From contig CANREQ010000004.1 of assembly GCA_947629695.1 (NCBI GenBank), positions 1-41,270 on the forward strand: a stretch of DNA of 41,270 nucleotides, read 5' to 3'. The position numbers and the translations under genes were made by a program. Under the pieces are notes generated by a model. It worked only from the letters and a program-made list of their open reading frames with translations. It was not told the origin of the DNA and made no database searches. Positions 20,335-32,577 of this stretch are shown here, in pieces; the stretch's first letter is position 1, and each line of letters opens with the position of its first letter. Origin of the DNA: an uncultured Clostridia bacterium. Its GTDB lineage: Bacteria > Bacillota > Clostridia > Christensenellales > Borkfalkiaceae.

Positions 20335-21537
20335 TCAACCCGCGCTTTTGAGCTTGATTTCGCACTTCAAGGTAAGCTCGTCCAAAAGGTTTTCCTTAAA
20401 GCTTTCGTAGCGGCCGTAGTGATATTTATACAGCTTTTCATACGCGCCGAAAATGTCGCTGTCCGCCGCGCGGGAAACTTCGAACGCGTCGCCGATGAGC
20501 GCGGCTATCGTCTCTTCTCCCCGCCTTAAAATTTCGTCCGGCACCTTGGATGAAGCCTGCTTGGGGTCAAATCCCCCTTTGCCGTCCTGCACGCTGACCG
20601 TCGCACCGAAAGAGGCTTTGAGCACTGGCCTGTCGCCCTCGAACGAAAGGGAGACGCCGCCCTTGCAACTGCGCAAACCGAGCACGTTTTTTTCTTCCCC
20701 CTCCCCGCTTTCAACGAACGCGTGCTTTACGTCGTTTGTGAGGATATTGAACGCGAACGCCTGCTTTGATGTGAGCACGCCCTTGCACACCCCACGGGAG
20801 AAAATCGCGCATTTGGAGCAGTCGAGCTCGCTTTCCTGACACTCGCCGCCGCTTCCGCCGCCAGAGCCGCCTCCGCTTGCCCCTCCTCCGCCCCCGCCGG
20901 AGCTTTCCCCCGAACCGCTTTCGGGCATAACGCCGTTTTCAAGGTAGGGCATATACGCGCCGCCGCCCGCCGAAAAGCATTTTTCGCCGAGGGATTTGAG
21001 CGTCACCGCGCTTACATTGCCCGAAGCTTCCGCCTCGGACGACAGGAGCTTTTCTATTACGTCCGTCGCGGAGTTGCCGCAGGGGAATTTTTGGGAGATG
21101 AGCTCCTTTGCCGAGCCCTCACACGCCGCCACGAGCAGGGTAAGGCCGGTGTATTCGTTGCGGTAAAAATAATCGAGGAGCGCGGTTATATCCTCCCGCA
21201 GGCAACTGCTTCCCAAAATTATCAGCTTGCAGAAAACCAATTTGGGATAAAAGCCCGTCTTTACGTTGACCTCGTTCAAGGCCGCCGCGACCGTCGCGCC
21301 CTTGCCCGTACCCACGTTGAAATCGGTATTTTCCCCGTTTTCCGCGGGCTTGGGAACGGCCAGCTGGGCGGTGAGGCTTATTTCCCCGTCCTCTTTATCG
21401 AGCGCGACGCCGATGACGACCGCCGTCTTTCTCAGATCGACGAGTCCGAAATCGTTTGTGAAAAAGAGCACCGTAAGCACGGCGAAAATTACGGCGTACA
21501 GCACTGTCAAAGCGCGTTTGAGCTTGGGTCTTTTCAT
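20335..21537 (-). CDS. gerC: GerC-type spore germination protein without a lipobox
   Basis: Third gene of a GerA-B-C nutrient germinant receptor, with Ger(x)C family features in VVIGVALDKEDGEISLTAQLAVP and the C-terminal helical region. It has 400 residues from the ATG at 21537, which follows GAGGAGG and overlaps the gerB stop (ATGA). The longer track ORF reads back into gerB. Canonical GerC is a lipoprotein, but the N-terminal hydrophobic segment (about 10-28) has no Cys, so this one is likely held by an uncleaved signal anchor. An unusual Gly/Ser-rich insert (about 205-230) is followed by a four-Cys patch (GECQ, LDCSKC, VCKG). The operon order A-B-C supports the assignment. Confidence 0.9.
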   Translation of the reverse strand: MKRPKLKRALTVLYAVIFAVLTVLFFTNDFGLVDLRKTAVVIGVALDKEDGEISLTAQLAVPKPAENGENTDFNVGTGKGATVAAALNEVNVKTGFYPKLVFCKLIILGSSCLREDITALLDYFYRNEYTGLTLLVAACEGSAKELISQKFPCGNSATDVIEKLLSSEAEASGNVSAVTLKSLGEKCFSAGGGAYMPYLENGVMPESGSGESSGGGGGGASGGGSGGGSGGECQESELDCSKCAIFSRGVCKGVLTSKQAFAFNILTNDVKHAFVESGEGEEKNVLGLRSCKGGVSLSFEGDRPVLKASFGATVSVQDGKGGFDPKQASSKVPDEILRRGEETIAALIGDAFEVSRAADSDIFGAYEKLYKYHYGRYESFKENLLDELTLKCEIKLKSAG

Positions 21538-22598
21538 CTCTTCCTCCTCAATATCCAGGCAAGGGGCGGCAGGATATACGCGAACGCGAGGGCAGGTATC
21601 CAGAACCACCCGGCCGCCGCCTTTTGCAATGTGATAAAGTTGTTGTTTACCGCAAACGTAACCGCAATGAGCGCGGCGCACGCGGCCAGCGAATAGATTA
21701 TGCGGCAATCCCTTGAAAAAACTTTGCACATACAGTGCACGAAGGCCTGGATATTCAGCACCGTGGCGAACAGCGCGACAATATCGAATGCGTACAAAAG
21801 ATATAAATCTATCCGCCCTACGTAGCTTATCGAGGGGAAAAAGACGGAAATGCTGCTCAATGCAAATGAGCGGGTGGGCGCGAGCGGGCCGTAAACGCAG
21901 TAAAACAGCGTTATAAAGGCGACCGCCGCAATTCCGCCCGCGGCGTAGGAGAGCGTCATCTTGGCCGCGTCCCCCTTTCCGTATTTGTAGTGCCCCATGA
22001 AAATCAGCAAAAACGTGCTCTCCGAAAAGCGGTACAAAGAGGAAACGCCCAGCCCCGCCACCTTGTTGAAAGGCCCTTTGAGAACGGGCAAAAGCGCGGT
22101 GAAATCCGCCCCCTCAACAGCCATCACCATAAACGAGAGCGTGCAGAAGAGGAATATGGGGAAGCACAGATCCGCGCATCTGCCGACGTTTGTAAGCGAT
22201 TTGACCCCCGCATATACCGCAAACACGAAGAACGGCATGAATATCCACAGCGACGGCATCGTGTCGTAAAACGCGTCGTGCACGAGCAGTTGCTGTTCGT
22301 TGACGGGCACCACCGCGGAGAGCAAAAACCACAATCCCAACAGCGCGTAAATAACGCGCGCCGCGACTTTCCCGAGGTTGTCCTCAAGGAGCGCAAACAG
22401 CGTTTTGTCCGTGCGCGAGGAAAGATAGGCGACAGACCAGACGACCGCCGTCTGCACGGCGAGATCGAAAAGTATCGGGAAGATGAGCGCGTTGCCAGCC
22501 GCCTCCGCCGCAAATGTGGGGAACAGCAGCATTTTTGTCGCCGCGTTGTAGGCGAAAAGTATAAAGCATATCTGCCTTACGGATATTTTTTCGTTCAT
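21534..22598 (-). CDS. gerB: GerB-type spore germination permease
   Basis: The 354-residue integral membrane protein has about ten TM helices and belongs to the GerAB/YndE group within the amino acid permease superfamily. It is the predicted ligand-binding subunit of the germinant receptor in the spore inner membrane. It starts MNEKISVRQICFILF, typical for the family, and overlaps both neighbours by 4 nt (ATGA with gerA upstream and gerC downstream). That overlap predicts translational coupling and fixed stoichiometry. The germinant cannot be inferred. Confidence 0.93.
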   Translation of the reverse strand: MNEKISVRQICFILFAYNAATKMLLFPTFAAEAAGNALIFPILFDLAVQTAVVWSVAYLSSRTDKTLFALLEDNLGKVAARVIYALLGLWFLLSAVVPVNEQQLLVHDAFYDTMPSLWIFMPFFVFAVYAGVKSLTNVGRCADLCFPIFLFCTLSFMVMAVEGADFTALLPVLKGPFNKVAGLGVSSLYRFSESTFLLIFMGHYKYGKGDAAKMTLSYAAGGIAAVAFITLFYCVYGPLAPTRSFALSSISVFFPSISYVGRIDLYLLYAFDIVALFATVLNIQAFVHCMCKVFSRDCRIIYSLAACAALIAVTFAVNNNFITLQKAAAGWFWIPALAFAYILPPLAWILRRKR

Positions 22599-24028
22599 CG
22601 TTTATTTTTCAACCTCACTTTGTTCGGGCTCTTGAGCGCTTTGGGGCGGGTTTTGAGCGCGCCCGTATCGTATTTATATATCGCGTCGCGCATGTCCTTT
22701 GCGATCACCGGCGCATAGGGAGACAACAGGGGCACGCCGTAAGATTGTTCGGTGACAAGATAGCTCATAATAAACGCTATCGCAAGAATTACGCCGAACG
22801 CGCCCACGGAGCCGGCGATTATCAGAAACATCAGCCTTAAGGTCGCGCTTGTTTCCACCAGATCGGGCACGGTATACAGGCAGATAGCCGAAAAGGCTAT
22901 TATGATTACGGCCGGGGTGGAAATAATCCCCGCTTTGACCGCCGTATCGCCGAGCACGAGCGCGCCTACAACCGACAGCGCGAGCCCAACGTACTTCGGC
23001 ATTCTTATGGAAGCCTCGTTCAAAACTTCCAGGACGAACAGCGCGAAAAATATCTCCACGCTCGGAGAAAGCGGTATGCCCGCGACGGAGCTGGCTATTT
23101 TGAAGAGCAGTTTGGCGGGTATCAGCTGGATTTTAAACAGCTGTGCGCACACGTAAAAGGCGGGCAGAAGTATGCCGAGGAGCACCGCGGCAAAGCGCAG
23201 GACGCGCAAGATCGTGGCGCGGTAGCTTACAGAATAGTAATCCTCCGCCGTCTGGAAATCCTCCACCAGCATATACGGCACGGTTATGGCTATGGGGGAG
23301 CCGTCGCAAATCAGCCCCACCCTGCCCTCGCACAGTTTCGCACAGAAAATATCCGGCTTTTCGCATGTGGCGTTGCGCTTGAACAGCGAGCGCGGCCGCT
23401 GGGAAATAAAACCCGCCGCATAGGAAGAATCGGCGAGAATGTCTATCTCGTTTGCTTTAAGCTGTTTTTCGATCTTTTCGGGAAGTCCCTTTTTGCAAAT
23501 GCCCTCAAGATAACAAATTGCGACCGCCGTGCGGCTCTGCTTGCCGCAAGTTATCGTCTTGACCTGCAAAGCGGGGCTCTTGACGCGCTTTCTCACGAGG
23601 CCGAGGTTGACCTTTATATCCTCCGTAAAGCCCTCGCGCGGGCCCTTGACGGTGACCTGCGTGGGCGGCTCCGCCACGGCCCTTCCCGGCGGGCTCTTGA
23701 CCCCGAGGATGAACACCTCCTCCGCGCCCTCCGCAAACAGGGCCGCGTCGCCGTCGGATATGCGCTCTATGACGTCGGCAAAATCCTTGCCGTCCTTGAG
23801 CTCTGGCGCGGCCAAAAGCTTTTTGATGCGGTCCGCGCCGTCCTCCGCCTTCACCTCGCGCAAAGGTTTTACGATGAGCTCCCCTATCATATTCTTATCC
23901 ACTATCCCGTCGGTGTACACGCAGGCGAAATTCCTGCCCGAAAGGGAGGAAAAGCGGAACACGAGGATATCTTCCGACGTGAGCTCCCCCTTGACGCGCG
24001 CTATTTTTTCTTCAAGCGAATTATTCAT
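22595..24028 (-). CDS. gerA: GerA-type spore germination protein
   Basis: First gene of the germinant receptor operon. The 477-residue protein has a soluble N-terminal domain (about 1-265) and a C-terminal membrane domain with about five helices. Recognisable stretches are FISQRPRSLFKR, GSPIAITVPYML and LLPAFYVCAQLF. Within the membrane domain, FFALFVLEVLNEASIRMPKYVG fits the family. The track starts at TTG 24034; the ATG at 24028 is preferred because a forespore-type -10 (CATAATA) ends 7 nt before it. There is no SD before either start. Confidence 0.93.
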   Translation of the reverse strand: MNNSLEEKIARVKGELTSEDILVFRFSSLSGRNFACVYTDGIVDKNMIGELIVKPLREVKAEDGADRIKKLLAAPELKDGKDFADVIERISDGDAALFAEGAEEVFILGVKSPPGRAVAEPPTQVTVKGPREGFTEDIKVNLGLVRKRVKSPALQVKTITCGKQSRTAVAICYLEGICKKGLPEKIEKQLKANEIDILADSSYAAGFISQRPRSLFKRNATCEKPDIFCAKLCEGRVGLICDGSPIAITVPYMLVEDFQTAEDYYSVSYRATILRVLRFAAVLLGILLPAFYVCAQLFKIQLIPAKLLFKIASSVAGIPLSPSVEIFFALFVLEVLNEASIRMPKYVGLALSVVGALVLGDTAVKAGIISTPAVIIIAFSAICLYTVPDLVETSATLRLMFLIIAGSVGAFGVILAIAFIMSYLVTEQSYGVPLLSPYAPVIAKDMRDAIYKYDTGALKTRPKALKSPNKVRLKNKR

Positions 24029-32329: not shown

Positions 32330-32357
32330 TTTACTTTTTACCGCCGGAAACTATAAT
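32330..32357 (+). promoter_or_regulatory. Promoter of the candidate small RNA
   Basis: TTTACT (32330-32335), 16 nt, TATAAT (32352-32357), directly downstream of the A/T-tract region. Predicted start near 32364. Confidence 0.6.
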
Positions 32358-32363
32358 TATTAG

Positions 32364-32472
32364 TGTAAAGTTAATACAAGATAACTTTACTTTCCCATTC
32401 AGTTCATTCATTTTCCCCCTTATCATACGAAGGCGGCGTTGGCGTAAGGTCAGCGTCGCCTTTGTTTTATGC
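32364..32472 (+). ncRNA. Candidate small regulatory RNA, ~109 nt, C-rich seed type
   Basis: Between a good promoter and an intrinsic terminator lies a unit with no credible ORF on this strand. It begins with a perfect 9-bp hairpin (GTAAAGTTA 32365-32373 / TAACTTTAC 32382-32390). A ~38-nt unpaired pyrimidine-rich stretch follows with TTTCCC (32391-32396) and TTTTCCCCCTT (32411-32421), and the unit ends in a GC hairpin with TTTGTTTT. C-rich single-stranded seeds between hairpins are the hallmark of RsaE/RoxS-type RNAs, which pair with SD sequences. No sequence homology to those RNAs is claimed. The alternative is an elaborate spmB 3' UTR. Confidence 0.55.
32430..32470 (+). terminator. Terminator ending the candidate small RNA
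   Basis: AAGGCGGCG pairs with CGTCGCCTT (one G-U), extended by further wobble pairs on both sides, then TTTGTTTT. Confidence 0.7.
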
Positions 32473-32531: not shown

Positions 32532-32577
32532 AAACCCCCGCCCGCTTGCATGCGCAAGCGGGCGGGGGTTTTGGCTT
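32532..32577. terminator. Strong hairpin between spmB/small RNA and the cysteine desulfurase gene
   Basis: An 18-bp stem (AAACCCCCGCCCGCTTGC and its complement) with an ATGC loop. The rightward side continues TTTTGGCTTTTT. On the leftward strand only TTTA follows. It probably serves the leftward nifS operon end as well. Confidence 0.75.

Follow-up and report, generated by a model that had tools for sequence, protein, structure and literature searches.

The gap between spmB and a cysteine desulfurase gene in the 41,270-nt stretch of DNA analysed here (the window) raises two questions: whether it holds a gene for a small RNA (sRNA), and, if it does, how that RNA might act. An earlier note on this DNA had proposed a discrete non-coding transcription unit made up of a promoter, a 5' hairpin with 9-bp arms, an unpaired C-rich stretch and an intrinsic terminator. 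The promoter scan and the fold recovered each of these elements in place (Table 1). The 109-nt stretch folds with -37.1 kcal/mol, and 0 shuffles were equally stable. In a 1-kb region we counted 4 promoter-like sites vs 0.7 in shuffles. The anti-SD tract was predicted to be unpaired, in line with the claim that a single-stranded C-rich stretch is complementary to SD sequences. Judged from its conserved promoter and terminator and from the lack of a conserved reading frame, the locus does appear to be a discrete non-coding unit, and we consider it almost certain that the stretch is a real, conserved sRNA gene. The sRNA is apparently uncatalogued so far. At gathering score, the sole Rfam match over the whole window was a SAM riboswitch (RF00162, 6362-6445, plus strand, 49.7 bits), which lies far from the sRNA; no sRNA family was matched, and at E-values up to 10 the sRNA region gave chance matches only.

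Table 1. Features of the sRNA locus in window coordinates.
Feature	Position	Strand	Basis or remark
Promoter TTTACT-16-TATAAT	32330..32357	+	promoter scan; kept in 34/34 genus loci
-35 box TTTACT	32330-32335	+	10/12 consensus matches together with the -10 box
-10 box TATAAT	32352-32357	+	spacer to -35 box, 16
Predicted small RNA, ~109 nt	32364..32472	+	fold z -7.2; conserved unit; start predicted at ~32364
5' hairpin, 9 bp (arms 32365-32373/32382-32390)	32365..32390	+	fold; compensatory pair changes among loci
Unpaired C-rich stretch	32391-32426	+	fold
Second C-tract TTTCCC	32391-32396	+	private to the window
C-tract TTTTCCCCCTT	32411-32421	+	conserved everywhere
Invariant unpaired block, ~25 nt, here GTTCATTCATTTTCCCCCTTATCATA	32402..32427	+	conservation; unpaired probability
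Anti-start CAT inside the invariant block	32405-32407	+	
Anti-SD inside the invariant block	32415-32421	+	
Intrinsic terminator, 17-bp hairpin (32427-32443/32449-32465) with short T-rich tail	32427..32472	+	fold; covariation

Conservation separates the elements of the locus clearly. BLAST detected the sRNA element in 53 of the 61 genus genomes. A common core was shared by 34 genus loci, all of which carry a -35/-10 pair at the same place, with TTTACT, TTTACA, TTTATA or TTGATT as the -35 box, a spacer of 16-17 nt and TATAAT as the -10 box. The sequence TTTTCCCCCTTATCATA was unchanged in 33 aligned genus sequences. In the terminator stem, both sides changed in 12 of 16 modelled pairs and 99.2% of the cells were paired, so that pairing is far above the shuffled and slid controls despite the sequence variation. 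Among loci, the length of the 5' hairpin differs widely; the 5' end was paired in 54 of 59 loci vs a shuffled mean of 14 (maximum 18), and compensatory changes are seen at pairs 5 and 6, which occur as AU, UA, GC and as CG, UA, GC. Between the two stems lies an unpaired block of ~25 nt, GCTCATMATTTTCCCCCTTATCATA, which is nearly invariant across the order and sharply bounded by variable surroundings. The information content in 25 loci of several families was 1.0-2.0 bits inside GCTCATMATTTTCCCCCTTATCATA and mostly below 0.8 bits outside, and the predicted mean unpaired probability of the block was 0.875 over 72 loci. A conserved C-rich stretch with varying stems, the pattern that had been named beforehand as support for an sRNA, is thus strongly evident in the alignment, the covariation and the information content. 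The conserved block extends beyond the C-tract named earlier. With regard to the two pyrimidine seeds that had been proposed, TTTTCCCCCTT holds in every locus, whereas none of the other loci read has TTTCCC.

To describe the spread of the sRNA, a covariance model and a strict sequence pattern were used. The model matched 186 of 201 family genomes (16 of 18 genera) and, at E <= 0.01, 137 of 297 order genomes, a figure that rests on rough E-values and includes weak matches. When one mismatch was tolerated, the strict 23-base core was present in 96 of 297 order genomes and 10 of 33 families, and the reversed control pattern gave 0 matches; this count leaves out the copy in the window, which carries one extra base. 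Several genomes have two to five copies of the sRNA (G267 C2/C6, G369 C15, G439 C2, G501 C90; L069 and L073), some of them arranged in tandem, in which the core is constant while the 5' parts differ. Beyond the order, the motif was essentially absent: the class sample gave five two-mismatch matches, at least three of them reading as an antisense RBS plus ATG, and the phylum sample gave one one-mismatch match that reads in the same way. The phage, plasmid and viral-contig collections searched contained no copy of the motif. Candidatus Coproplasma is the nearest named relative, and a literature search for small RNAs in these taxa yielded no publication.

Read as its reverse complement, TATGATAAGGGGGAAAATKATGAGC, the block is built like a translation start region, consisting of the SD AAGGGGG, six bases and ATG. 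In the window's clade, one base has been added and, according to inspection of the alignment, a CAT is kept at distance 7 from the C-run. Taken alone, a CAT at a suitable distance from the C-run is no improbable event (by our estimate, <10% by chance), so the anti-SD/anti-start layout is suggestive, not decisive. From this layout and by analogy with known sRNAs we infer pairing with mRNA, and with moderate confidence we favour a model in which the sRNA represses translation by pairing in trans with mRNA start regions. Sequence and comparison show an independent sRNA gene that has a promoter of its own and lacks coding content, and whose predicted RNA opens with a hairpin, exposes the block and ends in an intrinsic terminator. 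In this RNA, CCCCCUU would pair with G-rich SDs, and CAU, 6-7 nt away, would reach the AUG. With the SD and the start codon masked, the 30S subunit could not bind and translation would fall. The end hairpins would probably stabilise the RNA, and its action would be independent of Hfq in most carriers. We count in favour of pairing that at least three of the five two-mismatch matches outside the order are antisense to gene starts. Multi-target pairing is usually less strict than the invariance of a full 25 nt, which we count against it.

Candidate targets were sought in ~1.5 Mb of genome G060 and 0.82 Mb of genome G314, where a simple script was used to call gene starts. For hybridisation to the called start regions, the number of strong sites was roughly double that of shuffled seeds; it slightly exceeded their range in G060 and fell within it in G314. 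When the C-run was kept and the flanks were shuffled, controls were equally good in 6 of 40 cases (G060) and 2 of 40 cases (G314). With this enrichment within or at the edge of the shuffled-seed range, strong-SD genes as targets and an escape of leaderless genes are a conjecture. Target prediction against start regions, likewise suggested earlier, gave no perfectly matching mRNA, the perfect complement of the block being found only on the sRNA's own reverse strand, and no target common to the two genomes, with 0 of 155 orthologue pairs in the top 10% of both G060 and G314. In-register similarity was not raised in G060 and was marginal in G314, where some good in-register start sites occur; the best one, at 20/25, belongs to an FGGY-family kinase (column-permuted mean 16.2, maximum 20). 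In family f3, the start of this kinase gene stayed complementary among close relatives: nine of them, which differ in upstream sequence, scored -19.6 to -28.7, and the kinase is a suggestive candidate target. The best predicted site in G060 (-30.3 kcal/mol) lies at gerAC, but it is not kept in the genus of G060, and gerAC was rejected as a conserved target. The window itself carries a gerA-type spore germination operon (GerA, spore permease, GerAC) on the minus strand at 20338-23716.

As a rule, Firmicute sRNAs expose C-rich stretches for pairing with SDs (PMC9410917). The RsaE/RoxS comparison drawn in the earlier note is sound in one respect: RsaE/RoxS is a trans-acting Firmicute sRNA with single-stranded C-rich sequence complementary to SDs (PMC4409812), as is present here. 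RoxS, however, has several C-rich regions (CRR1-4), whereas TTTTCCCCCTT alone is conserved in the new sRNA. Expression under the control of ResD (SrrA) is a further trait of RsaE/RoxS. We do not assign it to RsaE/RoxS, because it has one conserved C-tract and no model match. With a single conserved C-tract out of two and an anti-start CAU inside the block, the new sRNA is closer in architecture to the streptococcal csRNAs; these consist of two stem-loops around an unpaired region with an anti-SD and an anti-start CAU (PMC3091779, PMC4507080), the arrangement seen here. The csRNAs are 87-151 nt long in S. pneumoniae and occur as several sibling copies (PMC3091779, PMC4507080), and their pairing with comC has been shown by restored complementarity (PMC4507080). 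By analogy, the mode of action of the new sRNA is most likely that of a csRNA. We nevertheless place it outside that family, because the CiaR repeat and the csRNA nonamer are lacking: the best upstream matches to the CiaR-controlled promoter (NTTAAG-N5-TTTAAG) are near the shuffled background, and the nonamer [A/C]UCCUAAA[A/C] after the first stem-loop was not seen on inspection of the folded loci. The anti-start region, moreover, is invariant in this sRNA but of limited conservation in csRNAs. LhrC1-5 of Listeria are likewise multicopy, C-rich anti-SD sRNAs (PMC4132741), but carry UCCC three times, as redundant motifs within their loops and linker, and no sequence relation to our sRNA was found. 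The C-rich regions of FsrA and IsrR pair with start regions (PMC9410917), as presumed here; both are set apart by description, being iron-controlled, with several C-rich regions in IsrR and FbpABC helpers for FsrA. Because its presumed pairing block is frozen over an order, we regard the sRNA as a new form of a known sRNA kind.

The near fixation of all 25 nt over at least 10 families and the lack of a conserved mRNA target would also fit a real sRNA whose block contains no mRNA seed and binds one conserved protein or invariant RNA, acting as an RNP scaffold or a sponge. We regard this as possible but doubtful. The block is the complement of an SD and a start codon at the correct spacing, the rule for Firmicute sRNAs (PMC9410917) speaks for SD pairing, and pairing between the block and rRNA was not above shuffles, with E. 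coli rRNA as stand-in. Furthermore, most carriers lack Hfq. Pfam gave no Hfq match in the window's genome (G000, 91% complete) or in the listed genomes of its family, and order-wide Hfq is present mainly in families without the strict motif, so most carriers seem to act without it, much as LhrC does not need Hfq on lapB (PMC4132741). Motif and Hfq are both present only in families f9 and f29, whose Hfq proteins are divergent and low-scoring.

An alternative that we consider unlikely takes the block as an order-wide frozen antisense of the consensus translation start, which would serve as a general initiation brake or as the docking site of a dedicated protein and not as the seed of a small regulon. 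We know of no sRNA that controls translation through a frozen block in either of these ways. Repression by pairing with mRNA start regions is the reading we prefer. Trans-acting sRNAs usually change fast, and it is unusual for such a block to stay fixed over at least 10 families of an order that is largely uncultured, and for the most part in the absence of Hfq. The sRNA gives direct access to the study of post-transcriptional control in these gut bacteria and leads to clear predictions concerning the block, the CAU-SD spacing and the tandem copies; whatever the mechanism, it would be a new RNA family for annotation.

In the window, spmB precedes the sRNA by ~115 nt and both lie on one strand, as would be expected of a cis element or mRNA tail, that is, an spmB 3' UTR or a piece of a neighbouring operon. 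Across the genus, the sRNA sits in the gap where spmAB and the cysteine desulfurase gene converge, but species differ in whether it runs with or against spmB. It points against spmB in L012-L016, L018-L025 and L029-L030, which indicates at least one in-place inversion of the small intergenic cassette within the genus. Other families have other neighbours, including MnmG, phosphoglucomutase, pyridine-nucleotide oxidoreductase, CNNM and VanW. Because the neighbours differ between families and the orientation to spmB flips within the genus, we conclude that the sRNA is an independent gene; as it also has its own conserved promoter, a cis element is very improbable. The block's minus strand resembles a start region, with the SD AAGGGGG and then ATG, and a small protein might be encoded there, or a peptide by the RNA itself. 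Such a gene is extremely improbable, as no reading frame is conserved on either strand across the loci (minus-strand frames comprise 2-109 codons, mostly <20, of unrelated sequence, and sense frames 0-28 codons), and it is the plus strand whose promoter and terminator are conserved. Simple consensus scans do yield false positives, but a chance pairing of promoter-like and terminator-like sequence is refuted by the occurrence in 53/61 genus and 96/297 order genomes, the zero control matches and the covariation.

A very strong 18-bp hairpin at 32532-32571 separates the sRNA from the cysteine desulfurase gene. T-rich sequence accompanies it on its plus-strand side and A-rich sequence on the opposite side; it is probably a shared, bidirectional terminator.
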